From Clostridium sp. HBUAS56010 (GTDB taxonomy: Bacteria; Bacillota; Clostridia; Lachnospirales; Lachnospiraceae): 64,000 bases of DNA. Of this stretch, positions 9,725-17,486 are shown piece by piece. Positions within the stretch are counted from its first letter, which is position 1, and each line of letters begins with the position of its first letter. The stretch lies in assembly GCF_007115105.1 (NCBI RefSeq), contig NZ_SULJ01000013.1, positions 1-64,000 on the forward strand, read 5' to 3'. Position numbers and translations under genes: made by a program. The notes beneath the pieces were generated by a model, which worked only from the letters and a program-made list of their open reading frames with translations, did no database searches and was not told the origin of the DNA.

Positions 9725-10903
9725 TTATAGTCCTCTGCTCTTTACAGGAATTCTCTTTTTTATCTGGGAAAGCCTGTTTAATGCTTCATAAAGAGTATCA
9801 TCTTTCTTTGCAAAATGGAACCGGATCAGATTATTAACCGGCTCTTTAAAGAAGCTGGAACCTGGAACCGCACCTACACCCACTTCTCTTGCCAGAACTT
9901 CACAGAACTCCAGATCACTTTCATAGTGGAAGTCTGTAATATCCATCATTACATAATAAGCACCTTCCGGTACGGTATGGGATAATCCAATGTCATCAAG
10001 ACCTTTTAGAAACAATTCCCGCTTCTTTGTATATTTTGAAAGCAGTCCTTCATAGTATTCCGGTCCAAACAAAAGACCGGGAATCACTGCTTCCTGAAGA
10101 GGGGCTGCTGCTCCTACAGTCAGAAAATCATGCACTTTTCTTGCTACTTGAATGATCTCAGGCGGAGCGATGATGTAGCCAAGACGCCAGCCGGTAATGG
10201 AGTAGGTCTTTGAAAGAGAACTGCAGGAGATTGTCCGTTCCCACATTCCTGGAAGTGAAGCAATATAGGTATGTTTATTCGGAGCATATACAATATGTTC
10301 ATATACTTCATCTGCAATCACATAAGCGTCATATTTCTTTGCCAGATCCGCAATGAAGGTCAGCTCTTTCAGAGTAAATACTTTCCCGCAGGGGTTCGAA
10401 GGATTGCATAAGATCAGTGCTTTGGGGCGCTGGGCAAATGCCGCTTCCAGCTCTGCCGGGTCAAATTGAAACAGGGGCGGATGAAGAGGAACATAAATCG
10501 GCTCTGCTCCCGATAAAATGGTGTCAGCACCATAGTTTTCATAAAACGGAGAAAACACAATTACCTTATCACCAGGATTTGCTACTGTCATCATGGCAGC
10601 CATCATGGCTTCTGTGCTTCCGCAGGTTACTACGATCTCGCTGTTTGGATCAATTTCATGTCCCATTGGACCGGACTGTTTTGCGGACAGGGCTTCTCTG
10701 AAATTCTGTGCTCCCCAGGTAATGGAATACTGGTGAAAATCTTCATCTGCCACTTCTTTTAAACGGTCAAGAATTTCCTTTGGCGGGTCAAAGTCAGGGA
10801 ATCCCTGGGATAGATTAACCGCGTTGTACTGGTTGGAGATTCTGGTCATGCGTCGGATTACGGAATCCGTAAATCCCGCAGTGCGGTCAGACAGTTTCTG
10901 CAT
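9725..10903 (-). CDS. PLP-dependent aminotransferase class I (methionine/kynurenine-aminotransferase-like)
   Basis: 392 residues, fold type I. Visible active-site residues: N170 in NPSNPCG, D198 and Y201 in ADEVYE, Schiff-base K232 in SSLSKTYSITGWR, R240 in GWRLGY. The N-terminal NLSQGFPDFDPP is typical of the kynurenine/glutamine-transaminase-K and YbdL-like group, whose E. coli member prefers methionine. It likely interconverts a 2-oxo acid and its amino acid. It is the last gene of the metN operon and overlaps the preceding gene by 17 bases. A GTG at 10936 gives a longer frame, but ATG at 10903 is eight bases from AGGAGG and was chosen. Confidence 0.85.
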   Translation of the reverse strand: MQKLSDRTAGFTDSVIRRMTRISNQYNAVNLSQGFPDFDPPKEILDRLKEVADEDFHQYSITWGAQNFREALSAKQSGPMGHEIDPNSEIVVTCGSTEAMMAAMMTVANPGDKVIVFSPFYENYGADTILSGAEPIYVPLHPPLFQFDPAELEAAFAQRPKALILCNPSNPCGKVFTLKELTFIADLAKKYDAYVIADEVYEHIVYAPNKHTYIASLPGMWERTISCSSLSKTYSITGWRLGYIIAPPEIIQVARKVHDFLTVGAAAPLQEAVIPGLLFGPEYYEGLLSKYTKKRELFLKGLDDIGLSHTVPEGAYYVMMDITDFHYESDLEFCEVLAREVGVGAVPGSSFFKEPVNNLIRFHFAKKDDTLYEALNRLSQIKKRIPVKSRGL

Positions 10904-12293
10904 GGTTGTTGCCTCCTGTAATGTATGATTTGCCACTATTTAAAATTCCAAGGGGATCGAGGGCATCTTTGATCCGGTTCATTACCATAAGATTCTCTTT
11001 TGGGGTTTCATGAAGGAAATAGGGACGTTTGCTGATTCCGATTCCATGTTCGCCAGAAGTAAGACCGCCAAGTTCATATGCCTTTTTATAGATCTTTCTC
11101 ATGGTTTCCTTTAATTCTCTGTTCCAGGTTTCTTCATCCCGGTCTCCCCGGACTACACACAGATGCACATTTCCATCACCTGCATGGCCGAAGCTGACCA
11201 TCTGCATTCTGGAGTCCAGTTCCAGTTGGTTGACATATTCAATAAAAGAAGCGCTCTGGTTGATGGGAACCACAATATCCACCGGTTCCTGCTCTGATAC
11301 TGCCTCAACCGCTTTCACAAGAGCTCCTCTTACCTTCCATATGCCATCTGCCAGTTCTTTGTCATCAAGAAGAATATAGTCCATGGCCCCATGTTTCATT
11401 ACCAGTTCCCGAACCTGCAATGCGGAGGCTTCTACCTCTTCTTTTCTCCCGTCAAAGGTGAGAAGAATATAGGAGCCTGCATCTGGTCTTGGATAGCGGA
11501 TTCCCATGAATTCCTCTCCAAGGCTTACTACTTTTCTTTCTACAAATTCCACTGCTGTAGGATTTGCATTTGCCTGTAAGATGGTAAGTACATTGTTTAT
11601 TCCTGTTCTCAGGTTTTTAAAAGGAACTAATACGCTTAACGAAGTCTCTGGCTTTGGAATGATTTTTAAGATACATCTGGTGATCACTGCCAGAGTTCCC
11701 TCTGAACCAATGACCAGGTTTTTAAGGGACAATCCGCTGGCATCCTTTACATTTTTGCTTCCCACCTGCAAAACCGTACCGTCTGCCAGAACGATCTCAA
11801 GCCCCCGCACATAATCTCTTGTGACGCCATATTTGACCGCTCTCATGCCTCCCGCATTGGTACTGATATTCCCGCCGAGAGTCGATTCTTTTTCTCCCGG
11901 GTCCGGAGGATAGAAAAAGCCTTCCGCTTCAACATAAGCCTGAAAATCCTTTAAAAGAACACCAGGCTCCACAGTGGCAGTAAAGGTATCCTGGTCCAGT
12001 TCCAGTATGCGGTTCATACGGGATAAGTCAAGAATGATTCCTCCCTGGACCGGAACCGTAGAACCAACCAGATTGCTTCCCGCTCCTCTTGGTGTTACGG
12101 GAATCTGGTTCTTGTGGGCAAATGCCAGAATCCCGCTCACTTCCTCCTGAGAGACTGGGAAGACCAGCGCATCCGCTCTTCCCTTTAAACGCCCCAGATT
12201 ATCACTTAGAAACCGAGGTTCTATCTGTTCAAACCGGATACGGGATTCATCCCTGATGATCTCCTTCAAAGCTTCTTTGTGAAAATCCATCAT
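10887..12293 (-). CDS. FAD-linked 2-hydroxyacid dehydrogenase (GlcD/D-lactate dehydrogenase family)
   Basis: 468 residues. The N-terminal FAD_binding_4 (PCMH) domain shows PRGAGSNLVGSTVP and NISTNAGGMRAVKYG; the C-terminal FAD-oxidase_C domain shows GHAGDGNVH and SGEHGIG near the end. There is no signal peptide and no Fe-S domain, so a separate electron acceptor is needed. Family members oxidise D-2-hydroxy acids (lactate, glycolate, 2-hydroxyglutarate) to 2-oxo acids. Within this operon, which also encodes a methionine transporter, an L-2-hydroxyacid dehydrogenase and an aminotransferase, I infer a D-2-hydroxy acid related to methionine as substrate. Start ATG ATG at 12293; GAAGGG upstream is a modest ribosome site. 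Confidence 0.83.
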   Translation of the reverse strand: MMDFHKEALKEIIRDESRIRFEQIEPRFLSDNLGRLKGRADALVFPVSQEEVSGILAFAHKNQIPVTPRGAGSNLVGSTVPVQGGIILDLSRMNRILELDQDTFTATVEPGVLLKDFQAYVEAEGFFYPPDPGEKESTLGGNISTNAGGMRAVKYGVTRDYVRGLEIVLADGTVLQVGSKNVKDASGLSLKNLVIGSEGTLAVITRCILKIIPKPETSLSVLVPFKNLRTGINNVLTILQANANPTAVEFVERKVVSLGEEFMGIRYPRPDAGSYILLTFDGRKEEVEASALQVRELVMKHGAMDYILLDDKELADGIWKVRGALVKAVEAVSEQEPVDIVVPINQSASFIEYVNQLELDSRMQMVSFGHAGDGNVHLCVVRGDRDEETWNRELKETMRKIYKKAYELGGLTSGEHGIGISKRPYFLHETPKENLMVMNRIKDALDPLGILNSGKSYITGGNNHAETV

Positions 12294-12313
12294 CGTCTCA
12301 CGACCCTTCTTTC

Positions 12314-13228
12314 TTATTTGTTTAATAAATCCTGATCCCAGCCGGCTTTGATGAAGTATCCGCCAAATGTATCGTTGAATACGCTTTCTGTGTTTTCAGA
12401 CTGGAATGTCTTTACAATGGTTTCATATAATGCTTTTTTCTCTGGATCTGCAACATCTTCACTGCGTGCTGCAATTAAGTTCCAGTAATTCTCTTCTCCA
12501 AGGCTTGTATCCTTAAAGATGGCTTCTTCTGTCTTTAAACCAAAATCAAGGGCATAGTTTCCGTTGACAATTCCTGCTGTCACGTCAGCAAGTGTGGAAG
12601 GAATGGTATTGGCTGCCAGCTCTTCAATCTTAATTTTAACTTTATATTCCTCAATATCATCAAGGGTAGGGTTAAAATCTGCTGATTCTTTTATCTGAAT
12701 CAGACCGGCTGATTCTAAAACTTTAAGGGCACGTCCCCCGTTTGTTACATCATTGGGAATGGCAACCGTATCTCCATCTTTAAGCTCAGAAATATCTTTT
12801 ACTTTGGTGGAATAAACGTTTAAAGGTATGATAAAGGTATTTCCAATGTTTTCAATCTTATAATTGTAGCTTTCTACCTCATTCTTTAAATAAATGCGGT
12901 GCTGAAATGCGTTTAAATCAATTTCTCCGTTTGCAAGAGCATTGTTAGGAGTTACATAATCAGAGAACTGTACAATTTCAAGGTTAATGCCTTCGTCTTT
13001 TAAGGTTTCTTTGGTTGGCTCCCATATATCTTCGTAAATACTTCCCACTACCCCCAGTTTTACGGTAACCGGATCTTTCTTTTCTGCAGTGGAAGCGGCT
13101 TCTGTTGTCTGTCCCGCTTCTGTGGTCTGCTTATCTGTGGTCTCTCCGGATTTTCCACCGCAGGCTGTCAGTGCCAGGGAAAAAGCGGCTGCTGATAAGG
13201 TAAGGGTAATTAATTTTTTAATTTTCAT
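12314..13228 (-). CDS. metQ: MetQ/NlpA-family substrate-binding lipoprotein
   Basis: 304 residues. Signal peptide ending in lipobox ALTAC (lipidated Cys23), then a Thr/Glu-rich linker and a type-II binding fold typical of MetQ (VKLGVVGSIYEDIWEP, GEIDLNAFQHRIYLKN). It would bind methionine outside the membrane and deliver it to MetNI. It is separated from metI and metN by the hydroxyacid dehydrogenase gene but is in the same operon. A frame from 13243 is open, but ATG at 13228 lies eight bases from GGAGG and starts exactly at the MKIKKL signal sequence. Confidence 0.92.
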   Translation of the reverse strand: MKIKKLITLTLSAAAFSLALTACGGKSGETTDKQTTEAGQTTEAASTAEKKDPVTVKLGVVGSIYEDIWEPTKETLKDEGINLEIVQFSDYVTPNNALANGEIDLNAFQHRIYLKNEVESYNYKIENIGNTFIIPLNVYSTKVKDISELKDGDTVAIPNDVTNGGRALKVLESAGLIQIKESADFNPTLDDIEEYKVKIKIEELAANTIPSTLADVTAGIVNGNYALDFGLKTEEAIFKDTSLGEENYWNLIAARSEDVADPEKKALYETIVKTFQSENTESVFNDTFGGYFIKAGWDQDLLNK

Positions 13229-13258
13229 GTTTGTTTCCTCCATTTGGTTGTTATATGA

Positions 13259-14218
13259 TTAAAAAGTAAGTGCCAGATCAAAGTTTTCCTTCATTGTCTG
13301 ACAAGACTTGTGAAACTCTTCAAATTCTTCTTCTGTCAACGCCAGTTCTACCACTTGGGCAACCCCATGACGATTTAACACACAGGGAACGCTTGCGTAC
13401 ACATCGGTTTCCCGGTACTGTCCGGTTAAAAGAGTAGATACCGGAAGAATTCTATTTTCATCGCCGAAGATGGCACGAACCACCTCTGCAATAGCGGCTC
13501 CGATTCCAAATTCTGTAGAACCTTTTCCAGCCAGTACATGCCAGCCGCCGGCCTTTCCTTCTGCTGCAATTGCTTTCAGATCAAGTACTCCGTAGACTTC
13601 CGGCTTCTCTTTTTGAAGCTGTGCAAGGGGCTTGCCTCCAATGGTCACCGCTGACCATGCCGCCATCTGGCTCTCCCCATGTTCTCCAAGGGCATACGCG
13701 GAAATAGACTTCTGGTCGATTCCAATCGCCTCTGAAATAGCTCTGCGAAGCCTTGCACTGTCTAAAGTCGTACTGGTTGATAAAATCTTCTCCGCCGGAT
13801 AGTGAAGGGTATGTTGAATGTAATGGGTCACAACATCGGCAGGATTGGAGATATTCAGAATAATCCCCTCAAATCCAGACGTCCGGATATTCTCGGTTAC
13901 TTCCTTAATAATAGCAATGGTCTCACTCAGAGTATCCATTCTGGTCTGACCCTTGTTCATATCCGGAAGGGGACCGGCTGCTACGACCATTAAATCAGCA
14001 TCTTTTGCATCGGTATAATCACCGGCGCGCACGATACAGCGTTTTGGTAAATATACGGTGGCATCAAATAAATCCAAAGCCTGTGCTGCCGCTTTTTTTG
14101 TATCTGTGTCAATGTAAACAATCTCCTCACAAAGTCCCTGGGAGATCAGGGCATAACCGGCATGGGAACCAACATGACCGGCTCCTATGATAACAATCTT
14201 TCTCTTTTGAATTTCCAT
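13259..14218 (-). CDS. L-2-hydroxyacid dehydrogenase, lactate/malate dehydrogenase family (HicD-like)
   Basis: 319 residues. NAD-binding GAGHVG (12-17); catalytic Asp153 and substrate-carboxylate Arg156 in LDSARLR; catalytic His180 in GEHGES. The substrate loop, DMNKGQTR (86-93), has neither the Gln pattern of lactate dehydrogenase nor the Arg pattern of malate dehydrogenase, suggesting a bulkier side chain as in L-2-hydroxyisocaproate dehydrogenase. The reaction would be L-2-hydroxy acid + NAD+ to 2-oxo acid + NADH. It is placed between metI and metQ, an unusual place for a dehydrogenase, which links it to methionine-like compounds. GGAGG lies seven bases before ATG. Confidence 0.83.
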   Translation of the reverse strand: MEIQKRKIVIIGAGHVGSHAGYALISQGLCEEIVYIDTDTKKAAAQALDLFDATVYLPKRCIVRAGDYTDAKDADLMVVAAGPLPDMNKGQTRMDTLSETIAIIKEVTENIRTSGFEGIILNISNPADVVTHYIQHTLHYPAEKILSTSTTLDSARLRRAISEAIGIDQKSISAYALGEHGESQMAAWSAVTIGGKPLAQLQKEKPEVYGVLDLKAIAAEGKAGGWHVLAGKGSTEFGIGAAIAEVVRAIFGDENRILPVSTLLTGQYRETDVYASVPCVLNRHGVAQVVELALTEEEFEEFHKSCQTMKENFDLALTF

Positions 14219-14246
14219 TTACATACCTCCATTTGAATAAAACCTG

Positions 14247-14927
14247 CTAATGAGTATTTTTCTTTACCACCTGATTACCGATAATCTGAACAATACTCAC
14301 CATGATAACAAGAACTAAAATGGTCACATAAGTCACATCTGTCTGATTTCTGTCATGCCCGTAACGTATGGCATAATCACCCAGACCGCCGGCTCCTACG
14401 GCTCCTGCCATGGCTGTCAGTCCAAGTAGACTGATGGCAGTAATGGTAGTACTGCGGGCAATTCCTGCAATGCTCTCCCGCAGATAAACCCGGAAGATAA
14501 TTTCCATCGGACTTTTTCCCATGGAAAGAGCTGCCTCAATGAGTCCCCGGTCGATTTCAGCAAGAGCACTTTCAATCTGACGGGCAAAAAATGGAACAGT
14601 TCCAAACACAAGGGGAACAATGGCACCTTCCACGCCGATTGCGGTTCCCATAATCAGTCTGGAAACAGGCATAACACCTGTCAGAAGAATAATAAATGGA
14701 ATAGAACGGAAGAAGTTGATCACCTTGTCAAACACCTGATAAACCCCTTTATTCTCCAGAATTCCAGCCGGCCTGGTTACGGTAATAATCACTCCGCATA
14801 TCATACCCAGAACAAAGGAAATAGAACCAGACCAGAACGCCATAACTAATGTATCCACAATTGCCTTATAAAAAGTAGGAAGTTTCCCCATAACATTGGG
14901 GATTAAACTATGAAGCAATTCCAGCAT
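14247..14927 (-). CDS. metI: MetI, methionine ABC transporter permease
   Basis: 226 residues with five predicted transmembrane helices and the MetI coupling region, ALSMGKSPMEIIFRVYLRES, that contacts the ATPase. Sequence character is typical of MetI (FFRSIPFIILLTG). It forms the membrane channel for methionine with MetN and MetQ. It overlaps metN by 20 bases, so the two are translationally linked. ATG with GAGGTG six bases upstream. Confidence 0.93.
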   Translation of the reverse strand: MLELLHSLIPNVMGKLPTFYKAIVDTLVMAFWSGSISFVLGMICGVIITVTRPAGILENKGVYQVFDKVINFFRSIPFIILLTGVMPVSRLIMGTAIGVEGAIVPLVFGTVPFFARQIESALAEIDRGLIEAALSMGKSPMEIIFRVYLRESIAGIARSTTITAISLLGLTAMAGAVGAGGLGDYAIRYGHDRNQTDVTYVTILVLVIMVSIVQIIGNQVVKKNTH

Positions 14928-15954
14928 CTTTAATCACCTCCACTCCTACATTTTTTTCTGCCAGATAATTCATCGCCTGATCAATCTGCTCTCTTTTACC
15001 GCTCATAATTGCCACAGTGCCGCCGATGGGAGCATCCTGAATGATCTCTATATCAGAAAAAATAATGTTTAAATCAATATCAAACTTCCTCGAAACCATG
15101 GATATGAGTGGTTCTGAAACATTTTTCTCCACATAAGAAAGGCGGACAATCATCTCCCCTGGTTTTAATCTGGTTACCGGAGAATCCTCTTTTAAAAGAC
15201 CACTGATCTTTTGCAGGTTGGAGGTAGTTTTTATGAAATCCCTGGTCACATCCTCTTTGGGATTGGCAAAGATGGAAAACACCTCTCCTTCCTCCACCAG
15301 TCTTCCTTTCTCCATAACAGCCACTCTGCTGCAGATCTCTTTGATTACAGCCATTTCATGAGTAATCATCACAACGGTGATCCCAAGCTGTTTGTTCAAT
15401 TTCTTTAAAAGCTGGAGAATTGACTTGGTGGTCTGAGGGTCTAAAGCACTGGTTGCCTCATCACACAAAAGAACTTTAGGATCATTGGCAAGTGCTCTTG
15501 CAATGGCAACTCTCTGCTTCTGTCCACCGGAAAGCTGGTTTGGATAAGCATTTTCCTTATCTCCAATATCCACAAGCCGGAGAAGTTCCCGTACTTTTTC
15601 TTCTTTTTCCTGCTTGGATAAATTGCTTCCTTTTAATGGAAACGCTACATTTCCAAAAACAGTACGGGAGGGCATTAAATTAAAGTGCTGAAAAATCATT
15701 CCAATCCCTTTTCTGGCAGTTCTTAATTCCTTTGGAGACAACGTTGTAAGTTCTCTTCCATCTACCGTTACCCTTCCGCTTGTAGGCATCTCTAACAGGT
15801 TAATACAGCGGACCAGGGTGGATTTCCCAGCTCCGGAAAAACCAATAATTCCAAATATCTCCCCTTTGCCAATGGACAACGACACATCGTCAATGGCATG
15901 GACTTCTCTCCCTCCGGTTCCAAAAACCTTAGAGATCTTCTCAAGTTCAATCAC
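14908..15954 (-). CDS. metN: MetN, methionine ABC transporter ATPase with regulatory NIL domain
   Basis: About 348 residues. Nucleotide-binding domain: Walker A GFSGAGKS (near 38-45), signature LSGGQKQRVAIARAL, Walker B VLLCDEATSALD. The C-terminal ~80 residues form the NIL domain that binds methionine and inhibits transport. The frame can start at ATG 15960, but AAGGAGG is then only one base away; GTG at 15954 (third codon) is seven bases from it and gives the family-typical N-terminus IELEKISKVFG, so GTG is preferred. It is the first structural gene of the six-gene operon, read only if the upstream terminator at 15975-16002 is bypassed. Confidence 0.92.
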   Translation of the reverse strand: MIELEKISKVFGTGGREVHAIDDVSLSIGKGEIFGIIGFSGAGKSTLVRCINLLEMPTSGRVTVDGRELTTLSPKELRTARKGIGMIFQHFNLMPSRTVFGNVAFPLKGSNLSKQEKEEKVRELLRLVDIGDKENAYPNQLSGGQKQRVAIARALANDPKVLLCDEATSALDPQTTKSILQLLKKLNKQLGITVVMITHEMAVIKEICSRVAVMEKGRLVEEGEVFSIFANPKEDVTRDFIKTTSNLQKISGLLKEDSPVTRLKPGEMIVRLSYVEKNVSEPLISMVSRKFDIDLNIIFSDIEIIQDAPIGGTVAIMSGKREQIDQAMNYLAEKNVGVEVIKDAGIAS

Positions 15955-15974
15955 TTTCATTCCTCCTTAAATAG

Positions 15975-16002
15975 AAAAAAACGGACTCCCGAAGGCTCCC
16001 GT
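15975..16002 (-). terminator. Attenuator terminator in the metN leader
   Basis: Minus strand: ACGG.../...CCGU stem, inner CC(UUCG)GG tetraloop with tandem G-A mismatches between (15981-16002), followed by U7 (15975-15981). It ends 14 bases before the metN start region, so transcription stops before metN unless prevented. Its 5' arm contains GGGAGC (15995-16000), which can instead pair with GCTCCC (16054-16059) at the end of the leader peptide frame, giving an antiterminator. Stabilities were judged by eye. Confidence 0.75.
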
Positions 16003-16043
16003 TTCTGGTCTATGGTAAAACTGTGCCATAAGCACGCTATAAT

Positions 16044-16154
16044 CTACCTGACTGGGAGCATGAAGAAAAAAGCACAAGCGCAACACATGAAAGACATCGC
16101 CATTGCCATGCCCATACAGGATTCTCTACTTGCTGCGTTTACAATTTTCTTCAT
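16044..16154 (-). CDS. Met/Cys-rich leader peptide (36 aa), putative attenuation sensor of the met operon
   Basis: Open frame ATG 16154 to TAG 16044 on the minus strand, with GGGAG six bases before ATG. The 36 residues hold seven Met (1, 14, 16, 18, 20, 23, 32) and four Cys (13, 24, 25, 27); five Met and four Cys fall within residues 13-27. Position is diagnostic: 46 bases after a consensus promoter and 42 bases before an intrinsic terminator, with metNI and metQ downstream. This fits a trp/his-type leader whose ribosome stalls at Met (or Cys) codons when the charged tRNA is scarce. No relative is known to me. An alternative is a genuine small hydrophobic peptide. Confidence 0.72.
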   Translation of the reverse strand: MKKIVNAASRESCMGMAMAMSFMCCACAFFFMLPVR

Positions 16155-16200
16155 TGGTAACTCCCATCAGTATACTCTTTTACATACTAGTTTTGTTGGT

Positions 16201-16229
16201 ATGATAGCACCCTGCCTGTCCCTTGTCAA
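16201..16229 (-). promoter_or_regulatory. Promoter of the met operon and its leader peptide
   Basis: Minus strand -35 TTGACA (16224-16229), 17-base spacer, -10 TATCAT (16201-16206). No other good promoter lies between it and metN, and no SAM riboswitch or T-box signature was found in the roughly 240-base leader. Confidence 0.8.
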
Positions 16230-16296
16230 CTCAAAATTTATAATTATTCATATCTTTTTATTGGAAATAATACTTTGTATTTCTCTTTTCATACAT

Positions 16297-16340
16297 AAAA
16301 ATGTGCAGAGCCCCTTATTTTCAGGGTCCTGCACGTTTTT
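16297..16340. terminator. Bidirectional terminator
   Basis: GTGCAGAGCCC (16303-16313) pairs with GGGTCCTGCAC (16324-16334), one mismatch, flanked by AAAAA on the left and TTTTT on the right. It ends transcription of the LysM-GH18 gene on the minus strand and lies 70 bases upstream of the met promoter. Confidence 0.8.
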
Positions 16341-17486
16341 CTAATCTCCTATTTTCCGGATCTCAAACATCTGCTCAAGAAGAAGCCAGTTCGCCCGGAA
16401 AAACTGCATGATCTGCCAATACCCTGCTCCCGTAAGCCCGAACTCCTTAATCAGATCAAATTTGGCCTTATAACTTCTCACATCTTCAAACCACACCTCA
16501 TGCTCCACTCCATATTGCCAGTAACGGAAAAATGGAGTCATGGCAACTTCATCAAACTGAATCTCAGCACCATGATCAATGGCAATCTGAATCGCCTGCA
16601 GATTATTGATTGTGGTAGCACTGGTAACGCCCCTCTCAAAGGGGAGAGGCCAATCGTATCCATAATTTGGTATTCCCAGGCTGATCTTTTCCCTTGGAAT
16701 CTCTGTAAGTGCATATTCTACTACACGCCTTACCATATTAATGGGGGCTACCGCCATGGGAGGGCCATATGTATATCCCCACTCATAAGTCATTAAAATA
16801 ACCCGGTTTGCCGCTTCTCCCAAAAGCCCATAATTCACCCCTTCATACAAAAGCCCGGGCTGATCCGCAGACGTCTTTGGTGCCAGGGCTACGGACACCT
16901 GGTACCCAAACTGATTCATGATCTGGGTAGTTTTCCTTACAAATTCCGCAAAGCCCGCTCCATCCTCTGCCATAATATACTCAAAATCAATGTCCAGCCC
17001 CCCATATCCCTTCTCAAGCATTGTAAGTCCCAGGTTCCAGATAAGCCTTTGTTCTACCTGGGGATTATGGACTAAATTTGTAACCAGATTGTTGTTAAAC
17101 CTGCCATCCTCTCCAAGAGGTGTCAGAGTAAGAATCGGACGCACCCCCGTGTTCCATGCCCGTTCAATCATCCAGTTATCACTGACCATAGGAGGAACCA
17201 GTTCCCCTGTCTCCGTAAACCCATAGGAAAAAATATAAAGGTCTGTAAGATACGGGAGAGTATTGTCTAATGTATCCGATTGAATAAATGGATACGCATA
17301 CCCAAACACGTATAGGGGCGTTCTGTCCTCCGGAAGGCTGTCCCCGCCAATATACAGCGCCTGCCCCACTGCCAGACGGTATGGCGGACTGATCTGATTG
17401 TCATAAACCAGAGTTTCAACCGGGATGCCCTGGGACTGGGCAATGGAATCCACATTGTCGCCCGGTTTTACCACATATATTTTCAT
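16341..17486 (-). CDS. LysM and GH18 domain glycosidase (spore-lysin YaaH/SleL-like)
   Basis: 381 residues. One N-terminal LysM (residues 2-46, IYVVKPGDNVDSIAQSQG) for peptidoglycan binding, then a GH18 barrel with the catalytic motif LDIDFEY (D165, D167, E169). SleL/YaaH-type proteins cut muramic-delta-lactam cortex peptidoglycan during spore germination and usually have two LysM units; this one has one. No signal peptide, as is usual for spore-coat enzymes made in the mother cell. ATG with AAAGGA upstream. An inverted repeat, TTTACCA/TGGTAAA (17498-17515), lies just before the start. Transcribed alone. Confidence 0.85.
   Translation of the reverse strand: MKIYVVKPGDNVDSIAQSQGIPVETLVYDNQISPPYRLAVGQALYIGGDSLPEDRTPLYVFGYAYPFIQSDTLDNTLPYLTDLYIFSYGFTETGELVPPMVSDNWMIERAWNTGVRPILTLTPLGEDGRFNNNLVTNLVHNPQVEQRLIWNLGLTMLEKGYGGLDIDFEYIMAEDGAGFAEFVRKTTQIMNQFGYQVSVALAPKTSADQPGLLYEGVNYGLLGEAANRVILMTYEWGYTYGPPMAVAPINMVRRVVEYALTEIPREKISLGIPNYGYDWPLPFERGVTSATTINNLQAIQIAIDHGAEIQFDEVAMTPFFRYWQYGVEHEVWFEDVRSYKAKFDLIKEFGLTGAGYWQIMQFFRANWLLLEQMFEIRKIGD

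Follow-up and report, generated by a model that had tools for sequence, protein, structure and literature searches.

A Met/Cys-rich leader in front of metN in Clostridium sp. HBUAS56010 as a probable tRNA-charging attenuator, with counterparts across Lachnospiraceae

What controls the methionine importer operon on the minus strand of the window, the 64,000-nt stretch of Clostridium sp. HBUAS56010 DNA analysed here? Methionine genes of Firmicutes are usually described as being under SAM riboswitches or T-boxes. The Rfam scan found neither a SAM riboswitch (RF00162) nor a T-box (RF00230) at the site in front of metN, where the initial annotation of this DNA had proposed a translated Met/Cys-rich leader with a terminator. 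The minus-strand gene order at 9725-15960 is metN-metI-LDH-like-metQ-GlcD-like-aminotransferase. metN (14908..15960) encodes an ABC ATPase with a NIL domain (PF09383; TIGR02314, 432.2 bits, below its cut-off of 499.7), and metI (14247..14927) encodes the permease (NF008049, 202.4 bits; cut-off 212). The other genes encode an L-lactate/malate dehydrogenase family protein (13259..14218), a metQ/NlpA-family substrate-binding lipoprotein (12314..13243), a GlcD-like FAD-linked oxidase (10887..12293) and a class I/II aminotransferase (9725..10936). This gene content would suit a route in which D-/L-2-hydroxy acids, such as methionine hydroxy analogue, are imported, oxidised to the keto acid and then transaminated to give Met. 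Among 12 loci with a leader of the window's type (first type; one locus is incomplete), the LDH-like gene adjoins metNI in eight and the GlcD-like gene in seven.

The promoter, Shine-Dalgarno (SD) sequence, Met/Cys frame, hairpin with T run and metN all lie at the coordinates first given for them, on the minus strand. The sigma-70-type promoter (16201..16229) consists of TTGACA (16229), a 17-nt spacer and TATCAT (16201), with 11 of 12 consensus matches plus a TG extension, and is kept in congeners. It is the top-scoring promoter-like site in the 8 kb scanned; such sites occurred there at chance frequency (17 seen, 16.1 expected from shuffles), so the match by itself is no proof. Directly after the -10, an interrupted inverted repeat, ACCAAC-N7-GTATGT (16182..16200), was noticed by eye. 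Repeats at this place were seen in both leader types (the window, L022, L133, L130 and L029), with the variants ACCAAC-N7-GTAGGT in L022 and CCTAC-N6-GTAGG in L029. The repeat is a possible operator, which we take to resemble CymR/Rrf2-type sites.

The SD region of the leader, GATGGGAG (16161..16168, by eye; region 1), contains GGGAG at 16165-16161. The 36-codon frame (16044..16154) runs from the ATG at 16154 to a TAG ending at 16044 and encodes MKKIVNAASRESCMGMAMAMSFMCCACAFFFMLPVR. Its composition is the one originally described: 7 Met (start included) and 4 Cys, with nine of these 11 in residues 13-27, the proposed stall zone (16074..16118). The binomial probability of this Met+Cys content, calculated for this frame alone and not genome-wide, was ~2e-7 against the composition of ten window proteins. 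Met and Cys made up 16.6% and 11.1% of the post-start residues in 22 chosen leaders, versus 2.6% and 0.8% in ten window proteins.

Two further motifs sit at the claimed positions: GCTCCC in leader codons 32-34 (16059-16054; region 2), the proposed antiterminator strand, and GGGAGC (16000-15995; region 3) in the 5' arm of the intrinsic terminator hairpin (16005-15978, by folding). Between leader and terminator there is a possible small spacer hairpin, GTGC-TTATG-GCAC (16023..16035, by eye). The terminator ends in a run of seven T (15980-15974), and metN begins 13 nt past it. The stem contains imperfections (two cut-outs folded at -8.8 and -10.1 kcal/mol), and a simple terminator scan of 8 kb did not list this hairpin. 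The distal leader had also been said to match the leader's own SD region, and CTGATGGGAG at the SD indeed pairs with CTCCCAGTCAG, with one bulge. By eye, the complement between the SD region and the distal CTCCCA is a perfect 8-bp one in G002/G010, has one mismatch in G022 and one bulge in the window; we make no claim for this 1:2 pairing as a conserved feature. A plus-strand frame over the region (15898-16344, 148 aa) was rejected as a gene because its openness is not kept in relatives, the longest antisense open stretch being 127 aa in the window's upstream region and 44-88 aa in five relatives.

An attenuator of this kind had been expected to show a conserved leader frame in relatives, and the comparison shows the frame conserved. 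Frame and Met/Cys codons are kept, with a terminator after the leader, which mostly favours the attenuator. The MetN search found close metN genes (83-100% identity) in 8 of 25 congeneric genomes, and all eight loci carry a Met/Cys leader, an SD, a distal CTCCC and a terminator. Leader sequences differ between congeners (e.g. MNRMMHAACCISQRAGNMTMAMSLMCCAHLYFLYSHPGK and MAKEMNTMMLCKCMCMDMAMSMMCCAHFYVCAPSFSYNRKLSLYH), with the Met run ending in MCC retained; in 7 of 8 first-type leaders, the residue after MCC is A, N, D or T and the next one is H (MCCAC in the window). In congeners G018 and G008, the frame extends ~10 codons beyond CTCCC. pN/pS was ~0.5 in the four more distant congener leader pairs of equal length (each with just 6-7.5 synonymous changes), which had pS of 0.31-0.38 and pN of 0.16-0.19. 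The two closest pairs (pS 0.05 and pN 0.05; pS 0.11 and pN 0.02) had too few changes to judge. The window's leader is a short SD-led frame near the predicted transcript 5' end and under coding constraint.

A second metN of the genus, ~48% identical to the window's, also lies behind a Met/Cys leader, of different sequence. Thirty of the 38 listed genus matches were examined; the leader was present at 17 of 17 loci of this paralog, and five loci of a third metN group had no Met/Cys leader. The commonest second-type form is MRRLTAMQMNMDQMNGMCMMMCCFSECVKNR, and the window genome's own form is MNQSYAMQMNMDRLNNMCKRCCISDCSKKP. The window's genome, like at least three congeners (G022, G023 and G001), has Met/Cys leaders at two distinct metN loci. 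pN/pS was 0.45 pooled over 12 second-type leaders. Codons 7-10, ATG CAG ATG AAT (ATGCAGATGAAT), are unvarying in all 12 distinct leaders (L042, L029, L033 and kin) and complementary to TTCATTTGTAT past the stop in most of them (by eye; L262 is not in this set). GGATTGTGAT, which adjoins TTCATTTGTAT, is by eye able to pair with the terminator arm. The invariant codons and their complement after the stop suggest a role of the second-type RNA itself.

Beyond the genus, a MetN match at E ≤1e-78 was found in 179 of 397 family genomes. The family set comprised 14 close matches (L126-L139) and 100 of the next-best among the matches listed (three with short upstream regions: L175, L229 and L267), which do not form a random draw. 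A leader was called where a frame behind an SD had 6 or more Met+Cys within 15 residues, a rule fixed after the first leaders were known. Such frames precede metN in 21 of 114 family regions chosen without regard to leaders (19 genera besides the window's), and in 24 of 117 when three loci from a leader-profile search (L142, L143 and L146) are included (20 genera besides the window's). On the reverse complements, the same rule found none in 117 family and 30 genus regions (0/147 together). A looser rule (at least 4 internal Met, 10%) gave 3/123 on the reverse complement, and with at least 3 internal Met (10%) there were 20/100 forward and 2/100 reverse; among the forward ones, L190, L206 and L237 were judged to be chance. 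When at least 5 of one residue in 15 were required in the 117 regions, forward/reverse counts were 20/0 for Met, 4/0 for Cys, 15/1 for Arg, 7/1 for Ala, 4/0 for Lys, 4/1 for Gln, 7/8 for Leu and 7/9 for Ser. The Ala, Lys and Gln frames are heterogeneous, as are the Arg-rich ones, which were rejected as leaders; because these also lie at varied distances, they were taken for out-of-frame reading.

At the closest family loci (L126-L139), a Met/Cys leader was found at 5 of 14 and none at nine, one of which has a T-box, indicating that the device is common, not universal. Leaders were also found in an Agathobaculum MAG (L046) and in strain KNHs2131 of Lachnoclostridium phytofermentans (L051), a species of this family. 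The 80 genome-contig loci to which these two belong, many from other phyla, otherwise yielded just two weak matches (L060 and L074), which were forward matches to the four-Met rule and were judged to be chance. Of five class-level metN loci, two have a SAM riboswitch and one has a T-box; the other two have neither, and no Met/Cys leader was seen there. In L126, L127 and L239, the stretch immediately before metN looks, by eye, like the end of a gene resembling cysteine synthase.

The known regulators are present elsewhere. SAM riboswitches precede metN in G624 and G728, and T-boxes precede it in G508 and, within the family, in G141. Rfam gave no match in 100 further family metN upstream regions, at the leader loci L017, L022, L023, L045, L126, L130, L133, L135, L137, L046 and L051, or for the regular-expression T-box calls L231 and L250, which were dropped. 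In the window's genome, a single SAM riboswitch passed the cut-off, in front of metK (a gene recognised by eye), as did 12 of 14 T-box matches; none of these lies at either metN.

A profile built from the metN leaders matched the window's genome at both metN loci only (E ≤0.5). At the same threshold, it matched 64 of 397 family genomes, mostly weakly. Twenty-two match loci were inspected, two of which were ended by the contig; three of the 20 readable loci held new leaders, all before metN, and the remaining inspected matches were taken as chance (L161, L162, L167 and matches without loci are outside this count). Across genera, the leader peptides have a mean column identity of 29% and no invariant column. 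These results bear on the alternative that the frame is a small-protein gene, whose product would be a functional peptide rich in Met/Cys(/His) (perhaps one that binds metal or arrests as a nascent chain), with its own terminator, metN being expressed by readthrough; the peptide would then matter, not tRNA charging. Conservation beyond the Met codons in close congeners, that is, the MCC motif and the following H, and pN/pS below 1 would suit such a gene. However, there is little common to the peptides across genera except Met/Cys, the leaders newly found by profile all precede metN, and in several lineages the terminator arm has a complement in the distal leader, as described below. We consider a small-protein gene improbable.

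The criterion yielded 49 leaders, and 37 entered the terminator and pairing tests after near-duplicates were dropped (L018, L020, L030, L031, L032, L034-L038, L040, L043 and L044); L046 was also outside this set, and L242 was included though under the Met+Cys threshold. The script placed 35 of these leaders, and in 34 of them a hairpin and T run separate the leader from metN; inspection by eye added two with GTG/TTG starts (L222 and L266), giving 36 of 37. In L126 (G196), the hairpin that follows the Met/Cys leader is very stable but has no T run; it may not be a typical intrinsic terminator, or the locus may have a different mode of control.

For 34 script-located leaders (L126 left out), pairing was scored as the best duplex of the terminator 5' arm with the RNA past the leader's median Met/Cys codon and was compared with 400 dinucleotide-shuffled versions of that RNA. 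In the window, GCUCCC:GGGAGC forms 6 bp (-12.7 kcal/mol) and was equalled by 12 of 400 shuffles. The L133 pairing, CUCCCGGAC:GUCCGGGAG, was reached by none of 400, and those of L135, L023 and L022 by 5, 6 and 15, respectively; in L264, with the arm trimmed to the true stem, the value was -12.4 kcal/mol (13/400). These six leaders are the ones with p ≤0.05 among the 34. Pairing was no better than chance in several others (L178, 200; L181, 308; L191, 308; L142, 311 of 400 shuffles). When 12 lineages, none of them of the genus types, were combined, p was 0.0012, rising to 0.045 without L133 and L264 and to 0.17 without L133, L264 and L135; these lineages are distinct in sequence, their independence being unproven (L135 and L137 begin alike, and L255 resembles the second type). 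Since the significance is carried by three lineages, the pairing is clear in some lineages, in differing sequences, and not in the rest. For GCTCCC as the antiterminator, the complementarity thus stands, at 12/400 shuffles and in few lineages, whereas arm occupancy in the window, given next, was not above shuffles. The competing pairing is the weaker part of the interpretation, with moderate support that comes from few lineages.

Occupancy of the arm was computed for 22 leaders on RNA reaching only to the terminator loop, with the ribosome position varied and 200 shuffles. The arm was held with the ribosome in the Met/Cys zone and freed afterwards in Agathobaculum, G196, G143, G194, G151 and G246, where the fall in occupancy between a mid-leader Met codon and the stop was matched by 11, 3, 12, 0, 7 and 14 of 200 shuffles, respectively. 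Hold and release were partial in G018 and G008 (drop matched by 27 and 44 of 200), and the drop was matched by 1 shuffle in G241 and 59 in G166. Window occupancy was 0.53 versus a shuffle mean of 0.59 (138/200 shuffles as good). It falls to 0.06-0.2 at codons 30-36 and climbs again at the stop, with no net drop there (153/200), and the five nearest relatives are alike (172-195/200). In eight second-type leaders, occupancy exceeded that of most shuffles (equalled by 1 to 27 of 200), without a fall at the stop in 6 of 8.

With the whole terminator included, the terminator probability in the window was 0.12-0.29 with the A site at codons 24-28 (Cys 24, 25 and 27) and back at 0.98-0.99 past codon 28, a dip matched by 18-28 of 200 shuffles. 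In equilibrium folding, the terminator prevails at most stall positions. In these computations, competing folds of the kind envisaged in the initial annotation switch with ribosome position in several divergent members; in the window, the occupancy test showed no effect and the dip at codons 24-28 was equalled by 18-28 of 200 shuffles. Nor is it a general rule that the ribosome covers GCTCCC, as had been supposed: the frame overruns CTCCC in G018 and G008, and the second-type pairing segment lies mostly beyond the stop codon. On these models, the members would not all be explained by one simple geometry.

Taken together, the comparisons support an attenuator interpretation, and we put at roughly 0.8 the probability that the window's leader is a ribosome-mediated transcription attenuator that senses how much Met-tRNA and Cys-tRNA is charged. 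Under scarcity of Met (or Cys), the ribosome would stall within codons 13-27, leaving the distal GCUCCC free to pair with GGGAGC in the terminator's 5' arm before RNA polymerase has made the 3' arm, and the polymerase would read through into metNI-ldh-metQ-glcD-aminotransferase. When both are ample, the ribosome would pass over GCUCCC, or GCUCCC would pair back with the SD region after release, and the terminator would form. That the leader is translated, that ribosomes stall in it, that the switch operates and how Met weighs against Cys are all inferred here from sequence and comparison.

The same leader RNA might instead respond to another input, as an aptamer or a protein-bound element in which the short frame merely positions ribosomes. 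The conserved second-type RNA (codons 8 and 10, CAG and AAT, in 12/12, and GGATTGTGAT past the stop) and the inverted repeat seen by eye after the -10 could be read this way; against it, Rfam had no match at the scanned leaders, and by eye the RNA is hard to align across lineages except for the Met/Cys codons and the terminator. We hold this to be slightly less probable still than a small-protein gene. An accidental Met-rich frame between an ordinary promoter and a leaky terminator, with which the window's occupancy and the chance frequency of promoter-like sites would agree, is strongly disfavoured by the recurrence at 8/8 orthologous and 17/17 paralogous loci and in 20 other genera, set against 0/147 reverse complements.

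The tRNA-charging attenuator of the window is most likely one case of a widespread Met/Cys attenuator class for methionine importers in Lachnospiraceae. In its full form, the claim is that a widespread dual Met/Cys class, absent from the literature searched, controls these importers through leaders of at least two types, before two paralogous metN in one genome, responds to the charging of tRNAs for both sulphur amino acids together and replaces the SAM riboswitch and T-box used elsewhere in the same genome; this we regard as reasonably likely. Met/Cys leaders in front of an importer in ~20 genera within a single family would bring in a third mode of regulation, in which both sulphur amino acids act through the charging of their tRNAs. 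A natural comparison is available within one genome, where a SAM riboswitch controls metK and a leader precedes metN, and the leaders make it possible to test directly whether attenuator specificity depends on codon content alone. Gene finders may miss such short frames before metN.

Classical amino-acid attenuators (trp, his, leu, ilv, thr and phe) combine a leader rich in the regulated amino acid, an intrinsic terminator and a competing pairing. Compared with these, the window's leader would have Met plus Cys as its input, controls an importer operon and belongs to Lachnospiraceae. SAM riboswitches (RF00162) and T-boxes (RF00230) are likewise known attenuators and lie before metN in other genomes, but have no match at the window's leader. 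No Met leader attenuator in Firmicutes was found in the literature searched, which covers few subscription papers.

The closest precedent found is metL of Streptomyces lividans TK24, a putative attenuator before metNIQ with Met and Cys codons (MSTTSDRTPATEATTTPGARCMCRRMCAF), described as having a leaderless start and missing a typical Rho-independent terminator (PMC8079986). Like the window's leader, metL is a short Met/Cys frame upstream of metNIQ; unlike it, metL is actinobacterial, leaderless and without a typical terminator (PMC8079986). Cys codons in short upstream frames are described for the cys and cbs operons of Actinobacteria (PMC1262725) and the cysS uORF of Rhodobacterales (PMC8632094). 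These leaders differ from the window's in being described by Cys and not Met codons and in serving other genes, and the mycobacterial cases have no conserved terminator (PMC1262725, PMC8632094). In bacilli, a His leader precedes hisS* and hisZ; it resembles the window's as a regular leader peptide replacing a T-box in Firmicutes and differs in its amino acid, histidine, and its hisS-family genes (PMC2965389). The attenuation mechanism proposed for the window is classical; as far as searched, its Met/Cys input and its setting are new.
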